Source: Deroplatys truncata
Taxonomy: Eukaryota > Arthropoda > Insecta > Mantodea > Mantidae
Assembly: GCA_030765065.1 (NCBI GenBank)
Contig: CM060989.1
Span: 42,523,501 to 42,587,500, forward strand
DNA length: 64,000 bases
Direction of reading: 5' to 3'
The translations under genes and the position numbers were made by a program. Under the pieces are notes generated by a model. It was not told where the DNA came from, searched no databases, and saw only the letters and a list, made by a program, of their open reading frames with translations. Positions 10,944 to 60,169 of the stretch are shown here, piece after piece (the first letter of the stretch is position 1; each line of letters begins with the position of its first letter).

Positions 10944-10951
10944 TTTTTTTT

Positions 10952-11820: not shown

Positions 11821-11828
11821 TTTTTTTT

Positions 11829-12053
11829 ATGTCCTGGACATGCAAAGAGAATGGAATGCGCCACATAGCAACCAGCACTTAAAAGATTTGACTGTCGCTT
11901 ATAACCTACCATATTCCCCTTGCATCTATAAGAAAACTAGCAATAAGATTCACATCTCGATATCTCGATTAACATAAAGCATATTGAGAATAAGCGTTTG
12001 TACAAATAGTCTGTGCAAGAGTAGAGAAAGTCATGTGAGTGTAACACATCAGA
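11829..12053 (+). mobile_element. Family H copy H7 (3' part only)
   Basis: Holds only the last ~225 bp of the element, from atgtcctggacatgc to the stem-loop and cacatcaga. It continues the tandem array. Confidence 0.82.
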
Positions 12054-12057
12054 TTTT

Positions 12058-15272: not shown

Positions 15273-15304
<32 letters not shown>

Positions 15305-16350: not shown

Positions 16351-16425
16351 TTCATACCTTCTACCTATGCACACTATAGATCCATTAAAAAAAACACACA
16401 ATTGCACATCGGCCGTTTCATAAAA

Positions 16426-24849: not shown

Positions 24850-24990
24850 TTTCACACAAGCCGTGTGTTGGACAGGGTTGGAAAGGTAGAATCAGATGAC
24901 TGAAAAATTCAATGCCATAGCCGGGATTTGAACCACGGATCTCCCAGTCTCCGTCCGGTTGCTCTAACCACTGAGCTACCATGGCAACAT
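24850..24990 (-). mobile_element. tRNA-derived SINE (family S1), minus
   Basis: The minus strand reads ATGGTAGCTCAGTGGTTAGA (A box) and GTGGTTCAAATCCCGGC (B box). It then has TTGAATTTTTCAGTCATCTG, tail sequence shared with the copy at 6402. An 18-bp perfect inverted repeat (24878-24895 and 24996-25013) brackets the tRNA-like part. Confidence 0.82.
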
Positions 24991-32983: not shown

Positions 32984-32989
32984 TACGAG
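32984..32989 (+). repeat. Left copy of 6-bp direct repeat TACGAG (putative TSD)
   Basis: TACGAG directly abuts the first base of the left arm. The same six bases, in the same orientation, directly follow the last base of the right arm (49942-49947), where they are the start of a mariner terminal repeat. Confidence 0.6.
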
Positions 32990-33000
32990 AGTAGTATTAG

Positions 33001-33147
33001 TCCCGGATGAGCCAATTGATTTAACGATAATCCTGCCGCTAGGGGCGCTGGTGTCGCTAGTGTCGGTGCGTGCGACGGCGGCGGCGGTAAGTTTGAAAAG
33101 CGCCCTGAGCGGTAGGATTATCGTTATTGCAATTGGTTCATCCGGGA
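33001..33147. repeat. 147-bp hairpin at left arm terminus
   Basis: TCCCGGATGAGCCAATTG at the left pairs with CAATTGGTTCATCCGGGA at the right. The inverted match covers about 49 bp with a handful of mismatches (through cgataatcct and the gggcgct words). The loop is rich in gtcgctagtgtcg and GGC repeats. It looks like a small MITE, but it starts 11 bp inside the palindrome end. Confidence 0.85.
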
Positions 33148-33321
33148 CGAGTTGAAAGAATTGAGGATTAGGGTAAGGTGAAGGAAGAAGAGGAAGTGAC
33201 GTGGAGTGTTTTGATTGGTTCGTTAATTTGGGTGGAAGATGAAGGAAGGAAGATGGAAGAGTATGGAGGTTGCGTGCTGGAGAGGAGCTGGGTGGCGAGG
33301 TGTTGTCTGTGCGGAGGTCGG

Positions 33322-33480
33322 GACTGAAAGAGGGAAAATATGGGGGAGCGAGGGATAAAAAGTGTAACAGAAAGTGACGTGTGAAGTTGCGATTGGTGGG
33401 AATAAGAAGTGATGTTATTGGTGGAAAGGAGCAAATGAAGGTTGTTGATTGGTAAGAATAAGAGAGATTATGATTGGTGG
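33322..33480 (-). promoter_or_regulatory. Outward promoter-like cluster P1, left arm
   Basis: On the minus strand, going downstream: four CCAAT boxes (reverse of attgg at 33473, 33448, 33417 and 33392), a CRE-like ACGTCA (33375-33380), a TATA-like TTTTTATCC (about 33353-33361), and an insect initiator TCAGTC (33322-33327). The TATA-like box is 30-36 bp upstream of the initiator. Transcription would run out of the element end. Equivalent clusters lie at about 34390-34545, 35510-35675 and 41755-41890. Confidence 0.5.
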
Positions 33481-33989
33481 AAAGAAAAAGGAGTGGGGTA
33501 TGTTGGAGGTGATGGGAAAGGTAAGTTTTGCTAGCAACAGGATTTGCAAAAGCCTGTCGTGAACTGATCAGCAATTTTTTTTGAACGTTGGATGGTAGTT
33601 TTCTTGAGTGGATAGAGAGATGGGGCGATATGAGATGCGGTGGCGAAAATGGGAACTAAACAAGGTGGTTGAGACAAGAGGTTTAAGGACGAGGAAATTT
33701 GGAGGTTAGTGGTGAACATGGCGGTTGCAAGAGGTGGGGGTAAGGAGATGCGGTGGTGAGAATGGGAACTAAAAGAAGATGGCGGTAGCAAGAGGTTAGA
33801 AGAGTAGATTTTGAGGTTAAAATAGCGGGAACTAAAAATGGCGGAGGGTCTGCGACAAGGAGATGCGGTGGGAACTAAACAAGATGGCGGTCGCAAGAGG
33901 AGGGTAAGGAGATTTGAGGTTACAGTACCAAAACACGAAAGGATATATTCCTACGCCAAGCAGGTCCGAAAAATAATTGTGCGTGTGGT

Positions 33990-33998
33990 ACTTACCTG
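33990..33998 (-). promoter_or_regulatory. Consensus 5' splice donor, module 1
   Basis: The minus strand reads ACAGGTAAGT, a perfect insect donor. Module 2 has a donor ACAGGTAAGT at 35056-35064, and both occur in the mirror arm. It lies downstream of the next inner promoter cluster and its small ORF. Confidence 0.4.
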
Positions 33999-34089
33999 TT
34001 ACAGGTGTGGATGCGTCACCAAAAGCGCGGCACGCGAGGCGGAAAAATAAAAGCAAACTGTTTTTGAAAATGCTTAACCAGCTTTAAGA

Positions 34090-34320
34090 TCAACCAACAT
34101 CACTACGCACTGATATACCTAGGTTTTTAAAGCGGTACAGACACCCTTTGCAGAGGCGTAATTTAACTATACCAAAAACCTGGTACTGGACCATCGTGAT
34201 GGTCGCTAGCGTACGTAGGAGCAGGGTTCTCATAGCCGGTCGAAAGCGGTCAAAAACGTGTACGACGTAGGTGTTGACAGTAGCTGCTGTCGAGTCAACG
34301 GTCGAGGTGTGAATAAACAA
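34090..34320 (-). CDS. Repeated small ORF, module copy 1 (hypothetical)
   Basis: The 76-codon frame contains TYVVHVFDRFRPAMRTLLLR and ends KNLGISVRSDVG. Essentially the same frame is found in the second module (within 35156-35587) and twice in the right arm. Differences between module copies in the N-terminal part are mostly amino-acid changing (D/A, T/A, V/A), which argues against selection for protein. It lies downstream of promoter cluster P2. I recognise no family, and it may be a non-coding leader. Confidence 0.2.
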   Translation of the reverse strand: MFIHTSTVDSTAATVNTYVVHVFDRFRPAMRTLLLRTLATITMVQYQVFGIVKLRLCKGCLYRFKNLGISVRSDVG

Positions 34321-35155
34321 GATCTGTTCTCGCCGGCAATTTGGTTCGGAGATGTGAGCAGCGGCGAGGTGTTGTCTGTGCGGAGGTCGGGACTGAAAGA
34401 GGGAAAAGATGGGGAGCGAGGGATAAAAAGTGTAACAGAAAGTGACGTGTGAAGTTGTGATTGGTGGGAATAAGAAGTGATTTTATTGGTGGAAAGGAGC
34501 AAATGAAAGTTGTTGATTGGTAAGAATAAGAGAGGTTATGATTGGTGGAAAGAAAAAGGAGTGGGGTATGTTGGAGGTGATGGGAAAGGTAAGTTTTGCT
34601 AGCAACAAGATTTGCAAAAGCCTGTCGTGAACTGATCAGCAATTTTTTGAACGTTGGATGGTAGTTTTCTTGAGTGGATAGAGAGATGTGGCGATATGAG
34701 ATGCGGTGGCGAAAATGGGAACTAAACAAGGTGGTTGAGACAAGAGGTTTAAGGACGAGGAAATTTGGAGGTTAGTGGTGAACATGGCGGTCGCAAGAGG
34801 TGGGGGTAAGGAGACGCGGTGGTGAGAATGGGAACTAAAAGAAGATGGCGGTAGCAAGAGGTTAGAAGAGTAGATTTTGAGGTTAAAATAGCGGGAACTA
34901 AAAATGGCGGAGGGTCTGCGACAAGGAGATGCGGTGAGAACTAAACAAGATGGCGGACGCAAGAGGTGGGTAAGGAGGTTTGAGGTTACAGTACCAAAAC
35001 ACGAAAGGATATATTCCTACGCCAAGCAGGTCCGAAAAATAATTATGCGTGTGTTACTTACCTGTTACCGGTGTGGATGCGTCACCAAAAGCGCGGCACG
35101 CGAGACGGAAAAATAAAAGCAAACTGTTTTTGAAAATGCTTAACCAGCTTTAAGA

Positions 35156-35587
35156 TCAACCAACATCACTACGCACTGATATACCTAGGTTTTTAAAGCG
35201 GTACAGACACCCTTTGCAGAGGCGTAATTTAACTATACCAAAAACCTGGTACTGGACCATCGTGATGGTCGCTAGCGTACGTAGGAGCAGGGTTCTCATA
35301 GCCGGTCGAAAGCGGTCAAAAACGTGTACGACGTAGGTGTTGGCAGTAGCTGCTGCCGAGGCAACCGTCGAGGTGCGAATGAACGAGATCTGTTCTTGCA
35401 GGCAATCTGGTTGAGAGATGAGAGGCGCGGTGGTAAAAATGTGAACTAAATAAGATGGCGGAGGCACGAAGTTGAGGTTAAGGAGCGGCGAGGTGTTGAC
35501 TGTGCGGCGGTTGGGGTCTGAAAGAGGGGGAAAGATGGCGAACGAGGGATAAAAAGTATAACAGAAAGTGACGTGTGAAGTTGTCAT
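35156..35587 (-). CDS. Repeated small ORF, module copy 2 (hypothetical)
   Basis: Longer frame (143 codons) whose C-terminal half repeats the ORF at 34090-34320. The N-terminal half overlaps promoter cluster P3, so it is unlikely to be translated as a whole. The mirror copy is at 47344-47775. Confidence 0.2.
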   Translation of the reverse strand: MTTSHVTFCYTFYPSFAIFPPLSDPNRRTVNTSPLLNLNFVPPPSYLVHIFTTAPLISQPDCLQEQISFIRTSTVASAAATANTYVVHVFDRFRPAMRTLLLRTLATITMVQYQVFGIVKLRLCKGCLYRFKNLGISVRSDVG

Positions 35588-35785
35588 TGGTGGGAATAAA
35601 AAGTGATGTTATTGGTGGAAAGGAACAAATGAAAGTTGCTGATTGGCGAGAATAAGAGAGATTATGATTGGTGGAAAGAAAAAAAGGTGTGGGAGTGGGG
35701 TATGTTGGAGGTGATGGAAAAGGCAAGTTTTGCTACCAACAACATTTGCAAAAGCCTATCCAGAACTCATCAGCAATTTTAAATA

Positions 35786-36519
35786 ACTAGTGTTTCGGGG
35801 GTTTTCTCTGGTTGGTAGACGAATGCAAGCTGTTTCTACCATACTTATATTATTCGTCTTTTTCCTTTTTTTTTTAAAAAATAACTAGTTTTTTTTTTTT
35901 TTGGAGTTTTCTGCGGATGGTAAACAAATGCAAGCTCTTTCTGCTTTTTCATAGGTTTTCCCTGGTTGGTAGGCGTTTTCTGTACTGGTTGACGAAGGCG
36001 TTTCTAATTTTGGAGGTTTTCTCAGGTTTTTAGCGGTTGTCCCTGCCCGGTAGGCAAATGATGAAGTTTTACCTTGTCGGCGCACGGATACTAGGCACGT
36101 ACTGGCGCGCACACACACACACACACACACAGAGAGACAGACAGACACACAGACAGGCACACACACACACGGACATGTTTCCAAAAATGCTTTTTTTTTT
36201 TTTGATTCAGGAGGTCTCAAAACGTGTATTTCCGGTGAAATCTCGGTATCGAATTTTTGGGCGGAATGCAATACTTCCCCTACTTACTATACGTAGTAGA
36301 GAAAGTAAAAAAGTATTGAAAAATTTAAGGAAATAACAAGCAATACCTCAAAAGTGTACTATCTTGTTTTCAAGGGTTTTCCAGATCGGTAAGCGTTAGA
36401 ATACTCTTAGAGCTTTTTTCAGGTTTTTTAGCGGTTGTCCCTGGCCGGTAGGCAGATGATAAAGTTTTTCTATAACGTCGTCGTTTTGGCTTGTGGCGCA
36501 CGGATACTAGGCACGTACT

Positions 36520-36560
<41 letters not shown>

Positions 36561-36580
36561 ATAGTAGCGTATAAAAAAAA
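35786..36580. repeat. Degenerate minisatellite and CA tracts, left arm
   Basis: Irregular repeats of a ggttttccctggttggtagg-like unit, with variants ctgcggatggtaaacaaatgc and ctgcccggtaggcaaatgatg. Two copies of gcgcacggatactaggcacg (about 36080 and 36494) each lead into a (CA)n tract. A family H head fragment (about 36110-36306, minus) lies between. Nothing here is coding. The mirror region is about 46351-47145. Confidence 0.65.
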
Positions 36581-37352
36581 ACTGATGTGTTACACTCACA
36601 TGACTTTCTCTACTCTTGTACAATCTAATTGGTAGCTTTTAAGCGATAGTCAAATATTTTAACGCTGGTTGCTATGTGGCGAATTCCATTCTGTTTGCAT
36701 GTTCAGGACATAAAAAAAATGAATAAACGAATTTGAGAAAAAGTATAAGTATTGGAAAATTTAAGGAAATAACAAGCAATATCTCGAAAACGGTTCACTC
36801 AACAAAAGAAACGTATATGACATAAGTTGTGTATTTTAACGCGATCTACATTTTTTGTGTAGTAAAATTTTGTCTATCTCTTATGGTTTACCAGTTATGC
36901 AAAAGTCGTTCACAATGAAGAATATTTTTGGAGACATTCCCAGAAAATTCGAGATATACATTTTATTTGTCATGACAATATCTTAAACATATGATATTTT
37001 AATCAAAATCGTTAGAGCCGTTTTTGAGAAAATTAAAATTTTCGAAAAATGTTCCATGTAAAGGGTAGTCTGGGGTGGGGGGATTTTCTTGAAAACCTTC
37101 GTGTCGCATCTCTGGAAGATACTGAACCTAAATACCAAGTTTGGTGTTTATCCGACTGTTCGTTTTTGAGTTATGCTGTTCACAGACACACAGACACACA
37201 GACAGACACACACACACGGACATGTTTCCAAAAATGCTTTTTTTTTTTTGGATTCAGAGATTCTCAAAACATGTATTTCCAGTGAAATCTCGGTAACGAA
37301 TTTTTGGGTGGAATGCAATACTTCCCCTACTTACTATACGTAGTAGAGAAAG
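36581..37352 (-). mobile_element. Family H copy L2 (minus, left arm)
   Basis: The right end (ctgatgtgttacactcacatg) is at 36581 and the left end at 37352. A ~170-bp internal deletion near 36630 joins tgtacaatct to aattggtagc. Confidence 0.8.
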
Positions 37353-37356
37353 AAAA

Positions 37357-37801
37357 AATGAATAACGCATTTGAGAAAAAGTATAAGTATTGGAAAATTT
37401 AAGGAAATAACAAGCAATATCTCGAAAATGGTTCACTCAACTAAAAAAATGTATATGTCATAAATTGTGTATTTTAACGCGATCTACATTTTTTGTGTAG
37501 TAAAATTTTGGCTATCTCTTATGGTTTACCAGTTATGCATACTGAACCTAAATACCAAGTTTGGTGTTTATCCGACTGTTCGTTTTTGAGTTATGCTGTT
37601 CACAGACACACAGACGCACAGACAGACAGACACACAGACACACAGACACACAGACAGTCACACACACGGACATGTTTCCAAAAATGCTTTTTTTTCTGGA
37701 TTCAGTGATTCTCAAAACATGTATTTCCAGTGAAATCTCGGTATCGAATTTTTGGGTGGAATGCAATACTTCCCCTACTTACTATACGTAGTAGAGAAAG
37801 T
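37357..37801 (-). mobile_element. Family H partial copy L3 (minus, left arm only)
   Basis: Tandem partial copy lacking the right end and with an internal deletion joining agttatgc to atactgaacc. It belongs to the ~1.09 kb that is absent from the right arm. Confidence 0.8.
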
Positions 37802-37805
37802 AAAA

Positions 37806-38423
37806 ATGAATAACGCATTTGAGAAAAAGTATAAGTATTGGAAAATTTAAGGAAATAACAAGCAATATCTCGAAAATGGTTCACTCAACTAAAAAAATGT
37901 ATATGACATAAATTGTGTATTTTAACGCGATCTACATTTTATGTGTAGTAAAATTTTGTCTATCTCTTATGGTTTACCAGTTATGCAAAAGTCGTTCACA
38001 ATGAAGAATACTTTTGGAGACATTCCCAGAAAATTCGAGATATACATTTCATTTCTCATAACATTATCTTAAACATGCGATATTTTAATCAAAATCGTTA
38101 GAGCCATTTTTGAGAAAATTAAAATTTTCGAAAAATCTTCCATGTAAAGGGTAGTCTGGGGTGGGGGGATTTTCTTGAAAACCTTCGTGTCGCATCTCTG
38201 GAAGATACTGAACCTAAATACCAAGTTTGGTGCTTATCCGACTGTTCGTTTTTGAGTTATGCTGTTCACAGACACACACAGACACACACACGGACATGTT
38301 TCCAAAAATGCTTTTTTTTGGATTCAGGAGGTCTCAAAACACGTATTTCCGGTGAAATCTCGGTATCGAATTTTTGGGTGGAATGCAATACTTCCCCTAC
38401 TTACTATACGTAGTAGAGAAAGT
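37806..38423 (-). mobile_element. Family H partial copy L4 (minus, left arm)
   Basis: Third tandem partial copy, starting at gaataacgcatttgag and ending at the left inverted repeat near 38423. It corresponds to about 45594-46211 in the right arm. Confidence 0.8.
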
Positions 38424-38429
38424 AAAAAT

Positions 38430-39020
38430 TTAACAAACCGTAGATTTTCAAGAAAATTCCCACACCGCAAACTACCCGTTTAGCGGGAGAAAGTTCGTTA
38501 TTTTTATTGTCTTAAAAACGGCTCTAACCCCTTTTGATTACGGTGCGGTATGTTTAAGATATCTGCACGACAAATAAAATGTATAACTTCAATTTTCTGG
38601 GAATAGCTGTGAAGTAGTCTCATTGTGAATGTCTTTTGTACAAAGTGTTAAACCGTAGGAAACGAAGCCTTATTTACAAGAACGTTAAAGCACACAATCT
38701 ATGTGTAAAATGAATAACGAATTCCCATTTGAGAAAATAAATATTGGAAAATTTAATGAAATAACAAGCAATATCTCGAAAACGGTTCACTCAACAACAA
38801 AAATGTATATGACATAAGTTGTGTATTTTAACGCGATCTACATTTTTTGTGTAGTAAAATTTTGTCTATCTCTTACGGTTTATCAGTTATGAAAAAGTCG
38901 TTCACAATGAAGAATACTTTTGGAGACATTCCCAGAAAATTCGAGATATACATTTCATTTCTCACGACATTATCTTAAAAACATATGATATTTTTCATCA
39001 AAATGGTTAGAGCCATTTTT
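38430..39020. mobile_element. Two family H fragments, opposite orientations
   Basis: A diverged plus fragment (38430-38708: gattttcaagaaaattccc, taaaatgtataacttc) meets a minus fragment (38709-39020: acgcgatctacattttt, gttcacaatgaagaata). Mirrored at about 44997-45587. Confidence 0.65.
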
Positions 39021-39120
39021 TTTAATACAAAGAGAACGGGATTTCACAAGTGAAACAGTACTGTGATAACGATACCAACAAACTAATTATTATTCACCCA
39101 CTGAAACACATAAAAAAAAA

Positions 39121-39530
39121 TCTGATGTGTAACACTCACATGACTTTCTCAACTCTTGTACAAAGTATTTTTACAAACGCTTATTCCCCATCTAGTTCAT
39201 GTTAATCGAGATAAACATTTGCAAACTCTATTTTATTGCTAATTTTCTTGTAGATGTAGGGAAAATATATTTACAAGGGGAATATAGAAAAACAGTAGCC
39301 TTTAAGCACATACATATCTCTTAATAGCTGGTTGCTATGTGCAGTACCATTCTTTTTGCCACTGATTAATACTCTTTGCATATCAAAGACAAAAAAAATG
39401 AATAACGAATTCCCATTTGAGAAAATAAGTTTTGGAAAATTTAAGTAAATAACAAGCAATATCTCGAAAACGGTTCACTCAACAATAAAAATGTATATGA
39501 CATAAGTTGTGTATTTTAACGCGATCTACA
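39121..39530 (-). mobile_element. Family H 3' fragment L7 (minus, H8 subfamily)
   Basis: Starts TCTGATGTGTAACACTC and includes the extra tatatttacaagggg block. It stops in acgcgatctacata at unique sequence. Confidence 0.78.
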
Positions 39531-39992
39531 TACTTTCGTACTCACCTATAAGAGATAGATGGTAGAGGTCGTACGAACGTAGCACTTTGAGAATTTATAT
39601 TCAACAGTTGGTGTTACTCCTTAGAAAGGAAGTATCTGCTGATTTTTATTTAATTCTTTACATTTTACATAACACGTATGCACTGGCACAACACAAAAGC
39701 ACTACACACGATACTCAGTTTTAATATTTGCACTAATAACATCAGGAATAACTGAAGTCTGCAAACAGTCATTTCCCATGTGCAGCCTTACGTACAAAGA
39801 ACGTGTGTGTGCTGATCTATGTGTAAAAAGAGCCTGAGAGCGGATGTACGTCAGCGGTAAAATCTTTTAAATGCATTTTTATTGGCGATGGTAGAAATCG
39901 TGCAGTGGTGGATCGTGAAAATTCGTATAAATGGATGTATCACCTCATAATAAGCCTCTATATACCAAGAATATTGAGTTTTTAAAAAGTCA
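39531..39992. other. Arm-specific sequence beside the 76-bp satellite
   Basis: Unique within the window apart from its mirror at 44025-44486. The minus strand carries CTTATAGGTGAGTACG, a good 5' splice donor context, near 39540-39556. I recognise no gene. Confidence 0.45.
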
Positions 39993-41473
39993 GCAACTGT
40001 ACCTGTGTTTCTATACGTGAACGTCAGATGGCAGCTTCGATACGTGTCCACGGAGACCTTAGTGCTAGGCAACTGTACCTCTGTTTCTATACGTGAACGG
40101 CAGATTGCAGCTTCGATACGTGTCCACGGAGACCTTAGTGCTAGGCAACTGCACCTCTGTTTCTATACGTGAACGGCAGATTGCAGCTTCGATACGTGTC
40201 CACGGAGACCTTAGCGCTAGGCAACTGCACCTCTGTTTCTATACGTGAACGGCAGATTGCAGCTTCGATACGTGTCCACGGAGACCTTAGTGCTAGGCAA
40301 CTGCACCTCTGTTTCTATACGTGAACGGCAGATTGCAGCTTCGATACGTATCCACGGAGACCTTAGTGCTAGGCAACTGCACCTCTGTTTCTATACGTGA
40401 ACGGCAGATTGCAGCTTCAATACGTGTCCACGGAGACCTTAGTGCTAGGCAACTGTACCTCTGTTTCTATACGTGAACGGGAGATTGCAGCTTCGATACG
40501 TGTCCACGGAGACCTTAGTGCTAGGCAACTATACCTCTGTTTCTATACGTGAACGTCAGATTGCAGCTTCGATACGTGTCCACGGAGACCTTAGTGCTAG
40601 GCAACTGCACCTCTGTTTCTATACGTGAACGGCAGATTGCAGCTTCGATACGTATCCACGGGGACCTTAGTGCTAGGGAACTGCACCTCTGTTTCTATAC
40701 GTGAACGGCAGATTGCAGCTTCAATACGTGTCCACGGAGACCTTAGTGCTAGGCAACTGTACCTCTGTTTCTATACGTGAACGGCAGATTGCAGCTTCGA
40801 TACGTGTCCACGGAGACCTTAGTGCCAGGCAACTATACCTCTGTTTCTATACGTGAACGGCAGATTGTAGCTTCGATACGTGTCCACGGAGATCTTAGTG
40901 CTAGGCAGCTATACCTGTTTCTATACGTCAACGGCAGATTGCAGCTTCGATACGTGTTCACGGAGACCTTAGTGCTAGGCAACTGTACCTGTGTTTCTAT
41001 ACGTGTCCACGGAGACCTTAGTGCTAGACAACTGTACCTCTGTTTCTATACGTGAACGGCAGATTGCAGCTTCAATACGTGTCCACGGAGACCTTAGTGC
41101 TAGGCAACTGTACCTCTGTTTCTATACGTGAACGGCAGATTGCAGCTTCGATACGTGTGCACGGAGACCTTAGTGCTAGGCAACTATACCTCTGTTTCTA
41201 TACGTGAACGGCAGATTGCAGGTTCGATACGTGTCCGCGGAGATCTTAGTGCTAGGCAACTATACCTGTTTCTATACGTGAACGGCAGATTGCAGCTTCG
41301 ATACGTGTCCACGGAGACCTTAGTGCTAGGCAACTGTACCTGTGTTTCTATACGTGAACGTCAGATGGCAGCTTCGATACGTGTCCACGGAGACCTTAGT
41401 GTTAGGCATTTGTACCTCTGTTTCTATACGTGAACGGCAGATTGCAGCTTCGATACGTGTCCACGGAGACCTT
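39993..41473 (+). repeat. 76-bp tandem satellite array, left arm (~19.5 units)
   Basis: The unit includes ctgtttctatacgtgaacgg, cagattgcagcttcgatacg and tgtccacggagaccttagtg. Most units are exactly 76 bp. One is shortened by recombination between its two acgtg words (about 40995-41010). Because 76 is not a multiple of three, the reading frame rotates, which makes the ~100-codon frames here meaningless as proteins. Confidence 0.95.
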
Positions 41474-41696
41474 TCGCTTCAGGTGACAAAATAACACTAG
41501 GCACTTGTGTGCCGTGGTGTAAGCCGCAATCACGGCATTGGTAGCGTGGATCTCCTTGGGGCTCTCCTCGGAGGTACCTCAACACCACGTACATGACCTG
41601 GTTCGTCACGGGTACGCAGGTCTGCACTACCACTTCCTCGGCGTTGAGCAGGCCCAGGAGGCGATCGTACCGGTACACCAGCTAGCACGTGGACAT
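41474..41696 (-). pseudogene. GC-rich ORF near the palindrome tip, left arm
   Basis: Downstream of promoter cluster P4, the minus strand has ATG at 41696 and codes MSTC, then TAG at codon 5. The frame then stays open: LVYRYDRLLGLLNAEEVVVQ, TCVPVTNQVMYVVLRYLRG, and a CRDC-plus-HH segment that could bind zinc. It finally runs into the satellite. Codon third positions are mostly G or C, unlike the AT-rich surroundings, which suggests a true gene ancestry. I do not recognise the family. Confidence 0.4.
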
Positions 41697-41754
41697 GTTA
41701 TCGCGCTGTGGTGTTGCGTGTGCGAGGTATGGAAACTCAAGGACGCAAGACATG

Positions 41755-41890
41755 CACGACCGAGGGTTAAAAAGCAGAACAAGTAGTGACGTGGAGCGTT
41801 GTGATTGGTGTAAATAAGACGATCTCTGATAGGTGGACAAATTGAAATAACGTGATGTGATAGGCGAAAATAAAATCAAAGGTGATTGGA
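41755..41890 (-). promoter_or_regulatory. Outward promoter-like cluster P4, left arm
   Basis: On the minus strand: CCAATCACC and CCAATCAC boxes, an ACGTCAC CRE-like word and TTTTTAACCC upstream of the GC-rich ORF. The order matches the clusters of the 1.07-kb modules. The mirror is at about 42204-42339. Confidence 0.45.
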
Positions 41891-41933
41891 TGAAAATGAC
41901 GAGAAGGAATTAGCGGTGAATTTGTGAACTAAG

Positions 41934-42160
41934 ATGGCGAAGATTTTTTTTTTAAAAAAAAAGGATAATATAAGTACGGCAACTGTAACGGTTTACGGCA
42001 AACGCGCGCCGCGCAATGCGTCACGCCCGGGCAATAAAACAAAAATCATATTGAGCAAGATGCCCGGCGTGACGCATTCCGCGGCGCGCGTTTGCCGTAA
42101 ACCGTTACAGTTGCCGTACTTATATTATCCTTTTTTTTTTAAAAAAAAAATCTTCGCCAT
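41934..42160. other. Palindrome tip: perfect-looking stem, 27-bp loop
   Basis: Arms meet at 42033 and 42061. The loop (42034-42060) is ataaaacaaaaatcatattg plus agcaaga. Just outside it the arms differ at single bases (gcgcaatgcg versus the reversed gcggaatgcg, and one extra C in cgcccggg). The stem includes a GC-rich gcgcgcgccgc-type stretch and mirrored A/T runs. Confidence 0.9.
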
Positions 42161-42203
42161 CTTAGTTCACAAATTCACCGCTAATTCCTTCTCGTCATTT
42201 TCA

Positions 42204-42339
42204 TCCAATCACCTTTGATTTTATTTTCGCCTATCACATCACGTTATTTCAATTTGTCCACCTATCAGAGATCGTCTTATTTACACCAATCACAACGCTC
42301 CACGTCACTACTTGTTCTGCTTTTTAACCCTCGGTCGTG
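42204..42339 (+). promoter_or_regulatory. Outward promoter-like cluster P4, right arm
   Basis: Mirror of 41755-41890: CCAATCACC, CCAATCACAA, CACGTCAC and TTTTTAACCC, reading rightward toward the GC-rich ORF. Together with its mirror it forms a divergent promoter pair about 310 bp apart around the tip. Confidence 0.45.
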
Positions 42340-42397
42340 CATGTTTTGCGTCCTTGAGTTTCCATACCTCGCACACGCAACACCACAGCGCGATAAC

Positions 42398-42621
42398 ATG
42401 TCCACGTGCTAGCTGGTGTACCGGTACGATCGCCTCCTGGGCCTGCTCAACGCCGAGGAAGTGGTAGTGCAGACCTGCGTACCCGTGACGAACCAGGTCA
42501 TGTACGTGGTGTTGAGGTAACTCCGAGGAGAGCCCCAAGGAGATCCACGCTACCAATGCCGTGATTGCGGCTTACACCACGGCACACAAGTGCCTAGTGT
42601 TATTTTGTCACCTGAAGCGAA
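42398..42621 (+). pseudogene. GC-rich ORF near the tip, right arm
   Basis: Mirror of the left-arm ORF (ATG at 42398, TAG at codon 5). Here a second stop, TAA at 42518-42520, arises from one base change (aggtac in the left arm, aggtaa here). The copies are therefore decaying independently. Confidence 0.4.
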
Positions 42622-44024
42622 AGGTCTCCGTGGACACGTATCGAAGCTGCAATCTGCCGTTCACGTATAGAAACAGAGGTACAGTTGCCTAACACTAAGG
42701 TCTCCGTGGACACGTATCGAAGCTGCCATCTGACGTTCACGTATAGAAACACAGGTACAGTTGCCTAGCACTAAGGTCTCCGTGGACACGTATCGAAGCT
42801 GCAATCTGCCCTTCACGTATAGAAACAGGTATAGTTGCCTAGCACTAAGATCTCCGCGGACACGTATCGAACCTGCAATCTGCCGTTCACGTATAGAAAC
42901 AGAGGTACAGTTGCCTAGCACTAAGGTCTCCGTGGACACGTATTGAAGCTGCAATCTGCCGTTCACGTATAGAAACAGAGGTACAGTTGTCTAGCACTAA
43001 GGTCTCCGTGGACACGTATAGAAACACAGGTACAGTTGCCTAGCACTAAGGTCTCCGTGAACACGTATCGAAGCTGCAATCTGCCGTTGACGTATAGAAA
43101 CAGGTATAGCTGCCTAGCACTAAGATCTCCGTGGACACGTATCGAAGCTACAATCTGCCGTTCACGTATAGAAACAGAGGTATAGTTGCCTGGCACTAAG
43201 GTCTCCGTGGACACGTATCGAAGCTGCAATCTGCCGTTCACGTATAGAAACAGAGGTACAGTTGCCTAGCACTAAGGTCTCCGTGGACACGTATTGAAGC
43301 TGCAATCTGCCGTTCACGTATAGAAACAGAGGTGCAGTTCCCTAGCACTAAGGTCCCCGTGGATACGTATCGAAGCTGCAATCTGCCGTTCACGTATAGA
43401 AACAGAGGTGCAGTTGCCTAGCACTAAGGTCTCCGTGGACACGTATCGAAGCTGCAATCTGACGTTCACGTATAGAAACAGAGGTATAGTTGCCTAGCAC
43501 TAAGGTCTCCGTGGACACTATCGAAGCTGCAATCTCCCGTTCACGTATAGAAACAGAGGTACAGTTGCCTAGCACTAAGGTCTCCGTGGACACGTATTGA
43601 AGCTGCAATCTGCCGTTCACGTATAGAAACAGAGGTGCAGTTGCCTAGCACTAAGGTCTCCGTGGATACGTATCGAAGCTGCAATCTGCCGTTCACGTAT
43701 AGAAACAGAGGTGCAGTTGCCTAGCACTAAGGTCTCCGTGGACACGTATCGAAGCTGCAATCTGCCGTTCACGTATAGAAACAGAGGTGCAGTTGCCTAG
43801 CGCTAAGGTCTCCGTGGACACGTATCGAAGCTGCAATCTGCCGTTCACGTATAGAAACAGAGGTGCAGTTGCCTAGCACTAAGGTCTCCGTGGACACGTA
43901 TCGAAGCTGCAATCTGCCGTTCACGTATAGAAACAGAGGTACAGTTGCCTAGCACTAAGGTCTCCGTGGACACGTATCGAAGCTGCCATCTGACGTTCAC
44001 GTATAGAAACACAGGTACAGTTGC
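42622..44024 (-). repeat. 76-bp satellite array, right arm (~18.5 units)
   Basis: Mirror of the left array, one unit shorter and with a single-base deletion in one unit near 43517 (ggacactatcg). The truncated unit is also present here, so it predates formation of the palindrome. Confidence 0.95.
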
Positions 44025-44486
44025 TGACTTTTTAAAAACTCAATATTCTTGGTATATAGAGGCTTATTATGAGGTGATACATCCATTTATACGAATTTTC
44101 ACGATCCACCACTGCACGATTTCTACCATCGCCAATAAAAATGCATTTAAAAGATTTTACCGCTGACGTACATCCGCTCTCAGGCTCTTTTTACACATAG
44201 ATCAGCACACACACGTTCTTTGTACGTAAGGCTGCACATGGGAAATGACTGTTTGCAGACTTCAGTTATTCCTGATGTTATTAGTGCAAATATTAAAACT
44301 GAGTATCGTGTGTAGTGCTTTTGTGTTGTGCCAGTGCATACGTGTTATGTAAAATGTAAAGAATTAAATAAAAATCAGCAGATACTTCCTTTCTAAGGAG
44401 TAACACCAACTGTTGAATATAAATTCTCAAAGTGCTACGTTCGTACGACCTCTACCATCTATCTCTTATAGGTGAGTACGAAAGTA
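44025..44486. other. Arm-specific sequence, right arm
   Basis: Mirror of 39531-39992. The plus strand carries cttataggtgagtacg near 44466. No gene recognised. Confidence 0.45.
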
Positions 44487-46350
44487 TGTAGATCGCGTTA
44501 AAATACACAACTTATGTCATATACATTTTTATTGTTGAGTGAACCGTTTTCGAGATATTGCTTGTTATTTACTTAAATTTTCCAAAACTTATTTTCTCAA
44601 ATGGGAATTCGTTATTCATTTTTTTTGTCTTTGATATGCAAAGAGTATTAATCAGTGGCAAAAAGAATGGTACTGCACATAGCAACCAGCTATTAAGAGA
44701 TATGTATGTGCTTAAAGGCTACTGTTTTTCTATATTCCCCTTGTAAATATATTTTCCCTACATCTACAAGAAAATTAGCAATAAAATAGAGTTTGCAAAT
44801 GTTTATCTCGATTAACATGAACTAGATGGGGAATAAGCGTTTGTAAAAATACTTTGTACAAGAGTTGAGAAAGTCATGTGAGTGTTACACATCAGATTTT
44901 TTTTTATGTGTTTCAGTGGGTGAATAATAATTAGTTTGTTGGTATCGTTATCACAGTACTGTTTCACTTGTGAAATCCCGTTCTCTTTGTATTAAAAAAA
45001 ATGGCTCTAACCATTTTGATGAAAAATATCATATGTTTTTAAGATAATGTCGTGAGAAATGAAATGTATATCTCGAATTTTCTGGGAATGTCTCCAAAAG
45101 TATTCTTCATTGTGAACGACTTTTTCATAACTGATAAACCGTAAGAGATAGACAAAATTTTACTACACAAAAAATGTAGATCGCGTTAAAATACACAACT
45201 TATGTCATATACATTTTTGTTGTTGAGTGAACCGTTTTCGAGATATTGCTTGTTATTTCATTAAATTTTCCAATATTTATTTTCTCAAATGGGAATTCGT
45301 TATTCATTTTACACATAGATTGTGTGCTTTAACGTTCTTGTAAATAAGGCTTCGTTTCCTACGGTTTAACACTTTGTACAAAAGACATTCACAATGAGAC
45401 TACTTCACAGCTATTCCCAGAAAATTGAAGTTATACATTTTATTTGTCGTGCAGATATCTTAAACATACCGCACCGTAATCAAAAGGGGTTAGAGCCGTT
45501 TTTAAGACAATAAAAATAACGAACTTTCTCCCGCTAAACGGGTAGTTTGCGGTGTGGGAATTTTCTTGAAAATCTACGGTTTGTTAAATTTTTACTTTCT
45601 CTACTACGTATAGTAAGTAGGGGAAGTATTGCATTCCACCCAAAAATTCGATACCGAGATTTCACCGGAAATACGTGTTTTGAGACCTCCTGAATCCAAA
45701 AAAAAGCATTTTTGGAAACATGTCCGTGTGTGTGTCTGTGTGTGTCTGTGAACAGCATAACTCAAAAACGAACAGTCGGATAAGCACCAAACTTGGTATT
45801 TAGGTTCAGTATCTTCCAGAGATGCGACACGAAGGTTTTCAAGAAAATCCCCCCACCCCAGACTACCCTTTACATGGAAGATTTTTCGAAAATTTTAATT
45901 TTCTCAAAAATGGCTCTAACGATTTTGATTAAAATATCGCATGTTTAAGATAATGTTATGAGAAATGAAATGTATATCTCGAATTTTCTGGGAATGTCTC
46001 CAAAAGTATTCTTCATTGTGAACGACTTTTGCATAACTGGTAAACCATAAGAGATAGACAAAATTTTACTACACATAAAATGTAGATCGCGTTAAAATAC
46101 ACAATTTATGTCATATACATTTTTTTAGTTGAGTGAACCATTTTCGAGATATTGCTTGTTATTTCCTTAAATTTTCCAATACTTATACTTTTTCTCAAAT
46201 TCGTTTATTCATTTTTTTTATGTCCTGAACATGCAAACAGAATGGAATTCGCCACATAGCAACCAGCGTTAAAATATTTGACTATCGCTTAAAAGCTACC
46301 AATTAGATTGTACAAGAGTAGAGAAAGTCATGTGAGTGTAACACATCAGT
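44487..46350 (+). mobile_element. Family H fragments, right arm
   Basis: Mirror of the left-arm H cluster: a 3' fragment (44487-44896), two facing fragments (44997-45587) and one near-complete copy (about 45594-46350) that joins the head of L4 to the right end of L2. The two extra partial copies of the left arm are missing, consistent with unequal recombination between direct repeats. Confidence 0.78.
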
Positions 46351-46370
46351 TTTTTTTTATACGCTACTAT

Positions 46371-46413
<43 letters not shown>

Positions 46414-47145
46414 CGCGAGTACGTGCCTAGTATCCGTGCGCCACAAGCCAAAACGACGACGTTATAGAAAAACTTTATCATCTGCCTACCGGCCAGGGAC
46501 AACCGCTAAAAAACCTGAAAAAAGCTCTAAGAGTATTCTAACGCTTACCGATCTGGAAAACCCTTGAAAACAAGATAGTACACTTTTGAGGTATTGCTTG
46601 TTATTTCCTTAAATTTTTCAATACTTTTTTACTTTCTCTACTACGTATAGTAAGTAGGGGAAGTATTGCATTCCGCCCAAAAATTCGATACCGAGATTTC
46701 ACCGGAAATACACGTTTTGAGACCTCCTGAATCAAAAAAAAAAAGCATTTTTGGAAACATGTCCGTGTGTGTGTGTGCCTGTCTGTGTGTCTGTCTGTCT
46801 CTCTCTGTGTGTGTGTGTGTGCGCGCCAGTACGTGCCTAGTATCCGTGCGCCGACAAGGTAAAACTTCATCATTTGCCTACCGGGCAGGGACAACCGCTA
46901 AAAACCTGAGAAAACCTCCAAAATTAGAAACGCCTTCGTCAACCAGTACAGAAAACGCCTACCAACCAGGGAAAACCTATGAAAAAGCAGAAAGAGCTTG
47001 CATTTGTTTACCATCCGCAGAAAACTCCAAAAAAAAAAAAAACTAGTTATTTTTTAAAAAAAAAAGGAAAAAGACGAATAATATAAGTATGGTAGAAACA
47101 GCTTGCATTCGTCTACCAACCAGAGAAAACCCCCGAAACACTAGT
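46351..47145. repeat. Minisatellite and GT tracts, right arm
   Basis: Mirror of 35786-36580 with slightly different GT/CA repeat counts, as expected for independent slippage. A family H head fragment lies at about 46625-46820. Confidence 0.65.
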
Positions 47146-49636
47146 TATTTAAAATTGCTGATGAGTTCTGGATAGGCTTTTGCAAATGTTGTTGGTAGCA
47201 AAACTTGCCTTTTCCATCACCTCCAACATACCCCACTCCCACACCTTTTTTTCTTTCCACCAATCATAATCTCTCTTATTCTCGCCAATCAGCAACTTTC
47301 ATTTGTTCCTTTCCACCAATAACATCACTTTTTATTCCCACCAATGACAACTTCACACGTCACTTTCTGTTATACTTTTTATCCCTCGTTCGCCATCTTT
47401 CCCCCTCTTTCAGACCCCAACCGCCGCACAGTCAACACCTCGCCGCTCCTTAACCTCAACTTCGTGCCTCCGCCATCTTATTTAGTTCACATTTTTACCA
47501 CCGCGCCTCTCATCTCTCAACCAGATTGCCTGCAAGAACAGATCTCGTTCATTCGCACCTCGACGGTTGCCTCGGCAGCAGCTACTGCCAACACCTACGT
47601 CGTACACGTTTTTGACCGCTTTCGACCGGCTATGAGAACCCTGCTCCTACGTACGCTAGCGACCATCACGATGGTCCAGTACCAGGTTTTTGGTATAGTT
47701 AAATTACGCCTCTGCAAAGGGTGTCTGTACCGCTTTAAAAACCTAGGTATATCAGTGCGTAGTGATGTTGGTTGATCTTAAAGCTGGTTAAGCATTTTCA
47801 AAAACAGTTTGCTTTTATTTTTCCGTCTCGCGTGCCGCGCTTTTGGTGACGCATCCACACCGGTAACAGGTAAGTAACACACGCATAATTATTTTTCGGA
47901 CCTGCTTGGCGTAGGAATATATCCTTTCGTGTTTTGGTACTGTAACCTCAAACCTCCTTACCCACCTCTTGCGTCCGCCATCTTGTTTAGTTCTCACCGC
48001 ATCTCCTTGTCGCAGACCCTCCGCCATTTTTAGTTCCCGCTATTTTAACCTCAAAATCTACTCTTCTAACCTCTTGCTACCGCCATCTTCTTTTAGTTCC
48101 CATTCTCACCACCGCGTCTCCTTACCCCCACCTCTTGCGACCGCCATGTTCACCACTAACCTCCAAATTTCCTCGTCCTTAAACCTCTTGTCTCAACCAC
48201 CTTGTTTAGTTCCCATTTTCGCCACCGCATCTCATATCGCCACATCTCTCTATCCACTCAAGAAAACTACCATCCAACGTTCAAAAAATTGCTGATCAGT
48301 TCACGACAGGCTTTTGCAAATCTTGTTGCTAGCAAAACTTACCTTTCCCATCACCTCCAACATACCCCACTCCTTTTTCTTTCCACCAATCATAACCTCT
48401 CTTATTCTTACCAATCAACAACTTTCATTTGCTCCTTTCCACCAATAAAATCACTTCTTATTCCCACCAATCACAACTTCACACGTCACTTTCTGTTACA
48501 CTTTTTATCCCTCGCTCCCCATCTTTTCCCTCTTTCAGTCCCGACCTCCGCACAGACAACACCTCGCCGCTGCTCACATCTCCGAACCAAATTGCCGGCG
48601 AGAACAGATCTTGTTTATTCACACCTCGACCGTTGACTCGACAGCAGCTACTGTCAACACCTACGTCGTACACGTTTTTGACCGCTTTCGACCGGCTATG
48701 AGAACCCTGCTCCTACGTACGCTAGCGACCATCACGATGGTCCAGTACCAGGTTTTTGGTATAGTTAAATTACGCCTCTGCAAAGGGTGTCTGTACCGCT
48801 TTAAAAACCTAGGTATATCAGTGCGTAGTGATGTTGGTTGATCTTAAAGCTGGTTAAGCATTTTCAAAAACAGTTTGCTTTTATTTTTCCGCCTCGCGTG
48901 CCGCGCTTTTGGTGACGCATCCACACCTCTAACAGGTAAGTACCACACGCACAATTATTTTTCGGACCTGCTTGGCGTAGGAATATATCCTTTCGTGTTT
49001 TGGTACTGTAACCTCAAATCTCCTTACCCTCCTCTTGCGACCGCCATCTTGTTTAGTTCCCACCGCATCTCCTTGTCGCAGACCCTCCGCCATTTTTAGT
49101 TCCCGCTATTTTAACCTCAAAATCTACTCTTCTAACCTCTTGCTACCGCCATCTTCTTTTAGTTCCCATTCTCACCACCGCATCTCCTTACCCCCACCTC
49201 TTGCAACCGCCATGTTCACCACTAACCTCCAAATTTCCTCGTCCTTAAACCTCTTGTCTCAACCACCTTGTTTAGTTCCCATTTTCGCCACCGCATCTCA
49301 TATCGCCCCATCTCTCTATCCACTCAAGAAAACTACCATCCAACGTTCAAAAAAAATTGCTGATCAGTTCACGACAGGCTTTTGCAAATCCTGTTGCTAG
49401 CAAAACTTACCTTTTCCATCACCTCCAACATACCCCACTCCTTTTTCTTTCCACCAATCATAATCTCTCTTATTCTTACCAATCAACAACCTTCATTTGC
49501 TCCTTTCCACCAATAACATCACTTCTTATTCCCACCAATCGCAACTTCACACGTCACTTTCTGTTACACTTTTTATCCCTCGCTCCCCCATATTTTCCCT
49601 CTTTCAGTCCCGACCTCCGCACAGACAACACCTCGC
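47146..49636 (+). repeat. Tandem ~1.07-kb modules, right arm
   Basis: Mirror of 33295-35785, with promoter-like clusters at about 47256-47443, 48386-48567 and 49440-49610. It carries small ORFs at 47344-47775 and 48611-48841, and GTAAGT donors near 47870 and 48935. The plus strand here is pyrimidine-rich, which keeps several overlapping frames open by composition alone. Confidence 0.82.
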
Positions 49637-49783
49637 CACCCAGCTCCTCTCCAGCACGCAACCTCCATACTCTTCCATCTTCCTTCCTTCATCTTCCACC
49701 CAAATTAACTAACCAATCAAAACACTCCACGTCACTTCCTGTTCTTCCTTCACCTTACCCTAATCCTCAATTCTTTCAACTCG

Positions 49784-49930
49784 TCCCGGATGAACCAATT
49801 GCAATAACGATAATCCTACCGCTCAGGGCGCTTTTCAAACTTACCGCCGCCGCCGTCGCACGCAGCGACACTAGCGACACTAGCGCCCCTAGCGGCAGGA
49901 TTATCGTTAAAACAATTGGCTCATCCGGGA
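49784..49930. repeat. 147-bp hairpin at right arm terminus
   Basis: Mirror of 33001-33147. It differs at a few bases, for example two substitutions in the gtcgctagtgtcg loop. Confidence 0.85.
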
Positions 49931-49941
49931 CTATTACTACT

Positions 49942-49947
49942 TACGAG
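49942..49947 (+). repeat. Right copy of TACGAG (putative TSD)
   Basis: Directly follows the last palindrome base and forms the first six bases of the mariner terminus TACGAGGGCTGTTTG. Confidence 0.6.
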
Positions 49948-50325
49948 GGCTGTTTGATAAGTTCATGACTTTGACGAGAGATAGCATTCTAATCACAGGT
50001 CACGATATTGTGTTGAGTGAAAATCCGTGAGATAGCTAAGATCGTAAACATCTCGAGTGAGATGTATACCTCACCCACCATATTCTCCAGATTTGGCTCC
50101 GAGCGACTTCTTCCTCTTCGCAAGCCTGAAAAATTGACTCGCTGGGAAGAAATTCACGTCCAGTGAACAGATATTGGAAGAAACAGCCTCATATTTTGTA
50201 GACTTTGAAAAATCGTATTTTTGGGAGGGTTAAAAAGTTGAAGAAACGTTGGACAGTGTATTGAATTGAAAGGAGACTATGTTGAGCAATAAAATCGATT
50301 TTATGGAAAAAACTTATTATTTTCT
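49942..50325 (+). mobile_element. Mariner remnant (second family)
   Basis: Begins TACGAGGGCTGTTTGATAAG, a typical mariner end. It then jumps to the C-terminal transposase: PPYSPDLAPSDFFLFASLKN, a stop, then LAGKKFTSSEQILEETASYF, ending near KETM. It keeps the third catalytic Asp motif. The N-terminus, first two catalytic Asp residues and right terminus are gone. The family differs from the one at 19143, 51945 and 56018. Confidence 0.8.
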
Positions 50326-50819
50326 TTTAAAAATTCACTGAGTTATCAATACGCACACATATATGGGTGTGTTTTAAATGCAGTGTGAACTAAAACTTAA
50401 ATACCAACAATGTTTTTTAACAAAATAAACTCTTAAATAATATACAACAAAATTAATTTCTGTAGTCCGACATGGAACTACTTTGTTGTTACCAATGTAC
50501 ACAGCTTGCCACGTGCCTTTGTTTACATTAGGTTCCATTCTAAGGCCGGCGGGATTGTAGCTGAGCGACATAGTAAGAATTTATATTCCAGAATTAAAAA
50601 CATCCGAGGAAGATTGTAATCTGAAAACCAGCTTTCGTCTCGACGCATGGCCGTATTATGGGGAATAACTTGCTCTTCACTTCGCTGTTTCTAACCGGTT
50701 CTCTTTCCCCTCCATTTTCCCTCCTCTCCGTGTGCCGGCTAATCAGTTGTTGCGAAGTCTTTGTACAGAGGTTGATACATTGTGAAGCCACGTGTTTCAG
50801 TGTCAGTGTGTTAGTTCTG
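50326..50819. other. Interval with a family C fragment
   Basis: 50470-50575 resembles 31380-31440 in reverse (tttgtttacattaggttcc). The rest is without recognised features. Confidence 0.4.
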
Positions 50820-51944: not shown

Positions 51945-53234
51945 TAGGAGGGTAGTCTCAGAAGTACCCGACCTGACGTATACATAGCGATTGTTGTTTC
52001 AAACAAATGACTATGGCAAAACGTATCACCCCTATAAAGCTTAAGTTTGAAGCTTGACGATGCTACGTTGTTTAGTAAGTGTTTGGCAGCCATTAATAGT
52101 GGACTCTTAGCAAATTTGTAAACATTGATAAAACTGGCCATCGTTATGTGATACAATACTTTCATTTGAAAGGTCTTAGTCCAACTAATATTAAAGATGA
52201 GCTATATTCTACTCTGGGGGAGTCTGCTCCTTCGTTTATAACAGTAAAATATTGGGTGGCAGAGTTTAAGCGAGGCCGTACGAGCTGCCAAGACGAACAT
52301 CGTAGTGATCGACCAAATGAGGTGACCACGCCAGAAATTGTGAAGAAAATCCACAAAATTTTATTGGATGACCGTCGACTGAAAGTGCGCGAGCTAGCAG
52401 ATATCACAGGTATTTCAAAAAGTGCTGTACATCGCACACTAACTGAAAATTTAAACATGAGTAAGTTGTGCACAAGATGGGTGCCGCGTTTATTCACAAT
52501 GGAACAAAAGCAGCATCGTGAAGATGTTTCAGTCGAGTGCTTCGCAATGTTTTTCTGCAATAAAGCCAGTTTTTGTGTGGAATCATAACCATGGATGAAA
52601 CATGGCTCCATCACTTCACACCTGAGACGAAGGAAAAGTCAAAACAGTGGATTGAAAGGGGAGAATCGGTTCCAAAAGCGAAGACAGTTCCATCTGCAGG
52701 CAAGATTATGGCGTCAGTTTTTTGGGATGCGCGTGGAATAATTTTCATTGCTTATCTTTAAAAAGGAAAAGCAATCAATGGCGAGTATTTAATGATTATT
52801 GCAGAGTTTGAATGATAAAATCAAGCAAAACCGCCCGCATTTAGCGAAAAAGGAAGTTCTGTTTCATCAAGACAATGCACCAGTTCACACATCCATTATC
52901 GCCATGGCCAAAATCAATGAGTTAAAGTTCAAATTGCTTCCTCATGCACCCTATTCGCCAGACTTAGCCCCCTCTGATTATTTTCTGTTTCCAAAGTTGA
53001 AGAAATGGCTTGCTGGTAAAAGAGTTGCCAACAATGAAGAGGTGGAGTTTGTATTTGATGGCTATTTTGCAGAACTCGACGGTTCTCACTATAAACATGG
53101 TAACGAAGCTACTGAACATCGCTGGGAAAAGTGTATCGAGCTGAAAGGAGACTATGTAGAGAAATAAAGATGTTTTTCCCCAAAATTTTTGTGTTTTCTT
53201 TGTTAGGTCGGGTGCTTCTGGGACAGCCCTCGTA
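51945..53234 (+). mobile_element. Mariner (DD34D) copy M2, nearly full length
   Basis: 1290 bp with TA at both ends and inverted termini (GGAGGGTAGTCTCAGAAG and the reverse of CAGCCCTCGTA). The start codon is ATT instead of ATG (about 52126). The first block (to 52588) has the two helix-turn-helix regions with VAEFKRG and GRPNEVTT-like (here DRPNEVTT). After a frameshift near 52560 comes TMDETWLHHFTPETKE (first Asp), then MASVFWDARGIIFI and a stop. The last block has HQDNAPVHTS and PYSPDLAPSDYFLFP. The second and third Asp residues are 34 residues apart. It is inactive but otherwise complete. Confidence 0.93.
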
Positions 53235-54125
53235 TGTGAATGCTTTCATTAAATAACATGGATGTCCTCAAACTATGTGTCATAAGTCATTTATATAACT
53301 ATCTGTTTAACTTTCTAAATGATGGCTAAAATCTTCCGATAGTATGCTGATGGATAAATAGATGGTTAATTATTATTAGTATTAATTTTATTCCTTGCTA
53401 TTAGGAAAGGAATTCTACAATTTAAAACCAGAATGTAATTTCCATTACTAAAATCCCTGAGGTTAAAGAAATTAGAATTCTGTGGTTGTATGACTTTAGC
53501 CTCCTCATGATCACCTAATGATCCTGAAGAAGATGACGGTATGAAGGGGTAGGCCCCTTTTACAATGAAAAGTAAGCACAAACGCAGCATAAACGCAAGA
53601 CTTTGCAATCATGTATTCTGCCCTTCTGTTCGTATTTAGAATGCTGGTCATCTCCTTAACTAGCATTTGGTCACCCAAGCAACCTGCCACACGCTCCCTT
53701 CAGCCTATTTCTATTCCTCCCCTTAATGGCCGGCTATTTCTTTTCTCCCTTTTCCACCATTCGTCCTTTACTTTCCTCTTACATTCACGTACATGCGACA
53801 TAATCAGAAACCTCACGATGAAATACTCCCGTTTCTAAAATCAAACTCTTTTACAGAAAAGTATCTTGTGTGAAACAGTGGCGTAGGTTGATAATCTACC
53901 TAATGGAAGTTTTATTACGCTTTTATTTTAACAGCTACCATAACAAGACCATAAAAAATAGTCAATTATTACTGCTCCTGAATGGTTACAGCAGTGCTTA
54001 CCTACTTTACTTTGGGAGCCTGGATCATTCCTCCACAGATTGGTTGCAAACATTGCAAACCTTGTTATGGATCACTTTTAATAAAATAAAAGCCTAACTT
54101 TTCCTTGGATGTACCGCAGTGTTTT
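53235..54125. other. Interval without recognised genes
   Basis: Only short frames. A Ser/Pro-rich plus frame at 53611-53838 is compositional. No repeat boundary seen. Confidence 0.4.
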
Positions 54126-60166: not shown

Positions 60167-60169
60167 GAA

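Follow-up and report, generated by a model that had tools for sequence, protein, structure and literature searches.

In foldback elements such as FB and Galileo, the inverted repeats are very long and contain tandem repeats, and elements of this kind (FB, Galileo and Rehavkus-like) generate target duplications of 7 to 9 bp. In SYREC and other end-duplicated adenovirus genomes, a protein-primed linear genome has become a giant palindrome that carries the same end twice. The invertron-type linear mitochondrial plasmid pAL2-1 is also protein-primed; its integrated copies are described as flanked by long inverted repeats, which, according to the authors, may stem from panhandle-shaped replication intermediates (PMC1864894). 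Maverick/Polinton elements encode a protein-primed polymerase for their replication (PMC6431247), and the account of vertebrate Mavericks in PMC8097293 gives 6-bp duplications and 5'-(AGT)2//(ACT)2-3' ends as hallmarks. Here, we describe a 17-kb palindrome in a 64,000-nt stretch of the genome of the mantis Deroplatys truncata (assembly GCA_030765065.1, contig CM060989.1, positions 42,523,501 to 42,587,500; the whole stretch is called the window, and its positions are used below). We interpret this palindrome, with a probability of roughly 0.78, as a high-copy, non-autonomous palindromic derivative of a virus-like Maverick/Polinton that is moved in trans and whose arms are homogenized, perhaps via fold-back replication intermediates.

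The palindrome resembles FB and Galileo in form only, through its inverted-repeat arms with internal tandem repeats; it is much larger, has Maverick-type ends and is bordered by 6-bp duplications rather than the longer ones of those elements. Unlike the SYREC-type adenovirus genomes, it is integrated in the host genome at high copy number. It also differs from pAL2-1, in which the repeats consist of host mitochondrial DNA around the plasmid (PMC1864894), whereas here they are the element itself. With Maverick/Polinton elements it shares 6-bp duplications, AGTAGT//ACTACT ends, inverted repeats and relics of polymerase B, but no intact gene was seen in the window element, and its inverted repeats take up most or almost all of its length, compared with 46-1,447 bp in the vertebrate Mavericks of PMC8097293.

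Insertion, copy number and Maverick-type ends

Self-BLAST and arm-to-arm alignment placed the palindrome at 32990-49941 and bore out an earlier sequence-only reading of this DNA, which had proposed a near-perfect 17-kb palindrome with collinear arms. In the alignment over 32990-42030, the arms are identical at 7,855 of 7,872 aligned bases (99.78%), with 17 substitutions and seven indels (1,086 bp, 76 bp and five of 1-6 bp). The 1,086-bp indel is a tandem duplication, confined to the left arm, within a repeat that we call module D, and the 76-bp indel is one minisatellite unit. The tip is short, as that reading had it, but the loop counts 29 nt and not 27 (Table 1).

Arm similarity ends at AGTAGT on the left and at ACTACT on the right, and the junctions read ...TATATACGAG/AGTAGT and ACTACT/TACGAGGGCTG. 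The six bases TACGAG stand on both sides, and the right flank runs on as CGAGGGCTGTTTGATAAGT, the end of a mariner family element; this end, preceded by TATA, occurs at 28 other genome sites with at most one mismatch. Together, the repeated TACGAG and the mariner end in the right flank indicate that the palindrome inserted into a mariner end and duplicated six bases. A 5-bp duplication, TATTA, with GTCCCGG as the end of the element, was considered and rejected, as the ends of other copies start with AGTAGT and point to TACGAG.

The 29-bp terminus has 3,466 exact copies in the 4.29-Gb host genome (1,740 forward and 1,726 reverse; control 0), and a 32-base pattern over the tip has 839 matches with up to two mismatches (425 + 414; control 0). 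At two termini per element, the exact copies of the terminus would mean about 1,700 elements, some 30 Mb or approximately 0.7% of the genome. On one contig, C1, the 100 ends listed contain 43 forward/reverse pairs, 10.5-19.8 kb apart (mean 17,380 bp, median 17,945 bp, n=43), and 14 ends with no pair inside 25 kb were left out. Our survey covers this one genome, with 11 elements seen across their full length: the window element and ten fetched copies, which are ten +/- pairs among the 40 best-scored ends, a choice that leans toward window-like ends. The first ten consecutive end pairs on the C1 list served as a second sample. All ten fetched copies have giant inverted arms (arms of 4.7-9.4 kb, loops of 0.8-5.3 kb), and in each of the 11 full-length copies the giant inverted arms mirror that copy's own layout on both sides. 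Perfect 6-bp duplications flank nine of the ten fetched pairs and all ten consecutive C1 pairs, or 20 of 21 insertions with the window. Among 20 duplications, base 2 is A in 15, base 3 is C in 10 and base 4 is G in 14, the A and the G hinting at a target preference of the integrase. The palindrome is one insertion of a high-copy mobile element family and, with a terminus that occurs 3,466 times, is not a lone oddity.

These observations also bear on two simpler explanations. Large palindromes are known as products of assembly, and the sequence-only reading had itself raised a fold-back of the assembly; an artifact of this kind or a chimeric read is contradicted by flanks that differ on the two sides, by the 6-bp duplications that bound the unit and by the 839 occurrences of the tip pattern. 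We rejected it on the grounds of flanks, target duplications and independent copies, and its chance is negligible. A local inverted segmental duplication of host DNA would account for the dispersed host repeat inside the arms, but not for discrete ends with a target duplication at many unrelated sites; it was rejected on the dispersed copies, the flanks and the target duplications, and we give it hardly any credence.

The evidence for Maverick descent lies in the ends of the window element, namely a 6-bp target-site duplication and AGTAGT//ACTACT termini, and in shared gene sequence. With the polymerase of a coding Maverick on contig C7 as the query, broken relics of a protein-primed DNA polymerase B (pPolB) were found on both sides of the tip (Table 1), and the reversed-protein control had no match in the window. 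Two fetched copies match the same polymerase in their loops: C16 at residues 20-279 (E 2e-55; the reversed control was run on the window only) and C5b at residues 20-77 (E 5e-6). The sequence-only reading had described the interior as non-coding and had set the palindrome apart from Mavericks. The first description stands for intact genes, as the longest start-codon open reading frame (ORF) in the arms has 203 codons, ORFs and Pfam gave no intact gene, and Pfam matched none of seven ORFs examined (six within the palindrome), but it fails for the polymerase relics at the center; the separation from Mavericks does not hold in view of the ends, the 6-bp duplications and these relics. Of the pPolB, integrase and capsid genes that are intact in a Maverick proper, only broken pieces of pPolB were found, and we file the element as a non-autonomous derivative of a Maverick.

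Coding Mavericks are present in the same genome. The one on contig C3 is 17,248 bp long, starts with AGTAGTATATACCCC, has AGTAGT ends and a 6-bp duplication (GTTAAC), and codes for an rve integrase that carries a chromodomain; its length is similar to that of the palindrome and falls in the range of intact vertebrate Mavericks (12.7-24.6 kb in PMC8097293). The second, on C7, was seen at one end and starts with AGTAGTATATGCCCC. For polymerase B (PF03175), the genome has 11,882 first-look candidates; the 76 of them that were scored yielded 152 matches, many in open frames of more than 1,200 codons. These polymerase B genes are numerous, their frames are open and of several lengths, and their scores are equal, so that some Maverick lineages in this genome are probably young. 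Beyond this genome, viral contigs contained no match to the terminus pattern, and among 39 of their stretches that match parts of the relic ORF tblastn found no relative. A palindromic Maverick was not found in the titles and abstracts of the literature matches listed.

The alternative that the element is of foldback type and comes from a different superfamily of DNA transposons (FB, Galileo or Rehavkus-like), with Maverick-like ends and polymerase pieces captured by chance, draws on the tandem repeats in the arms, which recall FB and Rehavkus, and on the ends of the coding Mavericks. When the end sequence of the palindrome was sought in the C3 and C7 elements, only about the first eight bases were common, and since the ends differ beyond these bases, neither element appears to be the parent of the palindrome. 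The palindrome end forms a strong hairpin that starts at base 11 and scores 29, against at most 9 in 60 shuffles, whereas in the C3 Maverick a dyad from base 12 scores 11, no more than the top value among 60 shuffles, and the highest-scoring dyad of C7 is placed further inward (34-46/156-168; score 13, with a shuffle maximum of 10). In Maverick terminal repeats of about 146 bp (L053 5095-5240, L054 8997-9142), the dyad that begins at base 12, CCCCACGGGAG/CTCCCGTGGGG, stands at the offset of the end hairpin of the palindrome but does not outscore the highest of 60 shuffles. The hairpin layouts of the palindrome and the coding Mavericks are only partly alike, and this likeness is suggestive only. 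Against a foldback superfamily stand the duplications of 6 bp, not 7 to 9 bp, in 20 of 21 insertions, the AGTAGT//ACTACT ends and the polymerase relics in both tip and loop classes, and we consider this origin improbable.

Homogenization of the arms within copies

In the main arm test, which used the first 925 bp of the 22 arms of 11 elements with gapped columns excluded, all 15 variants carried by exactly two arms were carried by the two arms of the same element. Partner arms agree at 98.0% over 23 shared-polymorphic sites (mean 71.6% and maximum 85.4% in 2,000 shuffles), the nearest arm is the partner for 18 of 22 arms, and of 31 arm differences 27 are each confined to a single arm. A first version of this test, over 1,372 bp, was distorted by the misaligned left arm of C5b and was redone on 925 bp; in it, the partner was nearest for 20 of 22 arms. 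In the consecutive C1 pairs, compared over 138 bp of each arm, two-arm variants fell in the same copy in 5 of 5 cases, and partner concordance was 95% at 8 sites compared with at most 92.5% in 2,000 shuffles; because indels inflate the raw left/right mismatch counts of this set (0 to 58 in 138), aligned counts without gapped columns took their place. Base 8 of the terminus, which is A or T about equally often, is the same at both ends in 41 of 43 C1 pairs; in the 925-bp test, 9 of 11 elements show this agreement.

Rearrangements follow the same pattern. A series of repeat units peculiar to copy C3a is present in both of its arms, and a displaced unit in copy C8 is mirrored in both arms; single-unit gains confined to one arm, in C4, C8 and the window, look younger. 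Because variants and rearrangements absent from the other sampled copies recur in both partner arms, we regard it as shown, at the level of sequence, that the two arms of a copy have been homogenized within that copy. Recent formation, active homogenization and a dedicated replication mode had all been put forward by the sequence-only reading, and it is the homogenization of arms that receives this support.

The centers of the copies fall into tip and loop classes. The 301-bp center of the window has at least 40 genome copies at 98% identity or more over nearly its whole length (40 of 1,017 candidates scored). The tip is present in 18 of the 43 C1 end pairs and lies within about 1 kb of the midpoint in 17 of them; although arm length varies among copies, the two arms match within an element, being equal within 11 bp, in 10 of these 18 (shuffle mean 1.5, maximum 7 in 20,000). 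One tip-bearing element, C1:157996829-158007456, has arms of 1.6 and 9.0 kb with both termini intact. The ten fetched copies are without the window minisatellite and, except for a fragment, without the window center; seven share a core in a loop of 0.8-1.2 kb, and the other three have loops of 2.6-5.3 kb. Part of this shared core occurs in both window arms (39532-39753 and 44264-44485). Because a single-copy loop of one class is thus arm sequence of another, palindromes probably arose, or were lengthened, on more than one occasion.

Several findings weigh against our interpretation, in addition to the dissimilar ends and dyads of the two coding Mavericks. One of the ten fetched pairs is without a 6-bp duplication. 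In the other 8 of the 18 tip-bearing C1 pairs the arms differ in length, by 56-1,847 bp and in one case by 7,425 bp, and the tip and loop classes may be of separate origin, since the copies differ at the center. The first arm test, with its misaligned arm, had two-arm variants in different copies twice (21 in the same copy), and in 5 of 10 C1 elements the alignment of the two arms has 4-24 gapped columns. Base 8 differs between the two termini of the window element, of copy C7b and of 2 of 43 C1 pairs. By these measures of arm length, gaps and base 8, homogenization is incomplete. Finally, the differences between the window arms are patchy: the outer 3.5 kb holds 10 of the 17, the innermost 0.8 kb the other 7, and the stretch between 36,524 and 41,283 none, a distribution that suits conversion tracts at least as well as renewal in one step.

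This patchiness supports a serious rival, in which the elements belong to the same Maverick-derived family but their arms are kept alike after insertion by chromosomal gene conversion (cruciform or sister-chromatid exchange), with no hairpin intermediate. Gene conversion in chromosomal palindromes is well known and would produce much the same patterns. The high proportion of private arm differences, which fits an origin after homogenization, and the concordance of the A/T polymorphism at base 8 tell against it, while both would still be compatible with conversion. We put the likelihood of this explanation somewhat below even.

Other features of the window

The features of the window are collected in Table 1. 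Module D, about 0.9 kb long and containing CA-rich microsatellites, makes up a large part of the flanks and recurs within the arms of the palindrome; it appears to be a host repeat that the palindromic element has picked up. Its polymerase-like matches are weak (E 0.016 and 0.026) and were not used as evidence. In the mariner remnant next to the right end, a transposase-like stretch was recognized by eye, as were mariner- and Tc1-like transposase fragments in ORFs of the flanks at 52100-53250, 19398-20350 and 57740-58285. At Rfam gathering thresholds, the only match in the whole window is a tRNA in the flank (minus strand, 24913-24985), near AAT/ATT microsatellite tracts.

Table 1. Positions of the palindrome, its parts and neighboring features in the 64,000-nt window
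Feature	Positions	Strand	Basis or remark
Left target-site duplication, TACGAG	32984..32989	.	identical to 49942-49947
Left arm, 9.04 kb	32990..42032	+	self-BLAST, alignment
Terminal hairpin, left end (33000-33049 pairs with 33099-33148)	33000..33148	+	score 29, 60 shuffles at most 9
Purine-rich tandem units of ~1,065 bp, two full and one partial, left arm	33294..35780	+	self-BLAST
Module D (dispersed repeat), left arm, including 1,086-bp duplication absent from right arm	36627..38428	+	self-BLAST, alignment
76-bp minisatellite array, ~20 units, left arm	39993..41473	+	
Broken relic of Maverick protein-primed DNA polymerase B (residues 1044-1121 of L052 ORF), two frames, stop	41474..41708	-	E 4e-13
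Asymmetric tip, 29 nt	42033..42061	.	sequence; 839 genome matches to 32-base pattern over tip
Right arm, 7.88 kb, mirror of left	42062..49941	-	self-BLAST, alignment
Mirror polymerase relic, reading outward from tip, with stops	42386..42620	+	E 1e-12
76-bp minisatellite array, ~19 units, right arm	42621..44024	-	
Purine-rich tandem units of ~1,065 bp, right arm	47151..49637	-	self-BLAST
Terminal hairpin, right end, mirror copy	49783..49931	-	hairpin scoring of end
Right target-site duplication, TACGAG; also part of mariner end TA/CGAGGGCTG	49942..49947	.	
Mariner remnant into whose end the palindrome inserted; outer boundary approximate	49944..50352	.	
Module D, flank copies	8785-12058, 14555-17108, 26102-26968, 60161-60977, 62270-63086		self-BLAST

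Proposed mechanism and implications

We propose that the family began with an ancestral Maverick that was stripped of its genes and turned into a head-to-head inverted duplication of one of its ends, probably via template switching during protein-primed, strand-displacement replication. A strand that switched template onto itself would have duplicated one end head-to-head around a small loop, and the resulting molecule, with two functional ends, could have been copied and integrated by helpers. Replication and integration would now be supplied in trans by coding Mavericks. During replication, the displaced single strand would fold into a long hairpin with a 9-kb duplex in which mismatches between the arms could be repaired, and such repair would renew the palindrome in each cycle; repair in the folded strand would explain why arms agree within copies but differ between them. 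The helper, the hairpin step and packaging are parts of this scheme that we infer.

Full-length elements without genes are unusual. The length of the palindromes, close to that of the coding Maverick, suggests a packaging limit, and this is the boldest and least tested part of our proposal. In its most extended form, the element would be a gene-less Maverick satellite: a palindromic linear genome that is replicated by the protein-primed polymerase of a helper, packaged in a helper capsid that holds its length near 18 kb, and re-integrated, with single-strand fold-back re-copying one arm onto the other in each round as a form of proof-reading. We advance this version tentatively and consider it unlikely as a whole.

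Near-perfect palindromes of such size are thought to be hard to maintain, and the family described here shows that giant near-perfect palindromes are able to spread in a large genome. With its 3,466 termini, and with matching arms in all 11 copies seen at full length, it offers a natural replicated experiment on how palindromes are formed, moved and kept up. It also links giant palindromes with protein-primed replication, and it suggests the existence of Maverick satellites of full genome length. If homogenization occurs at insertion, then the divergence between the arms of a copy would date its insertion, in the same way as the divergence of long terminal repeats (LTRs) does for retrotransposons.

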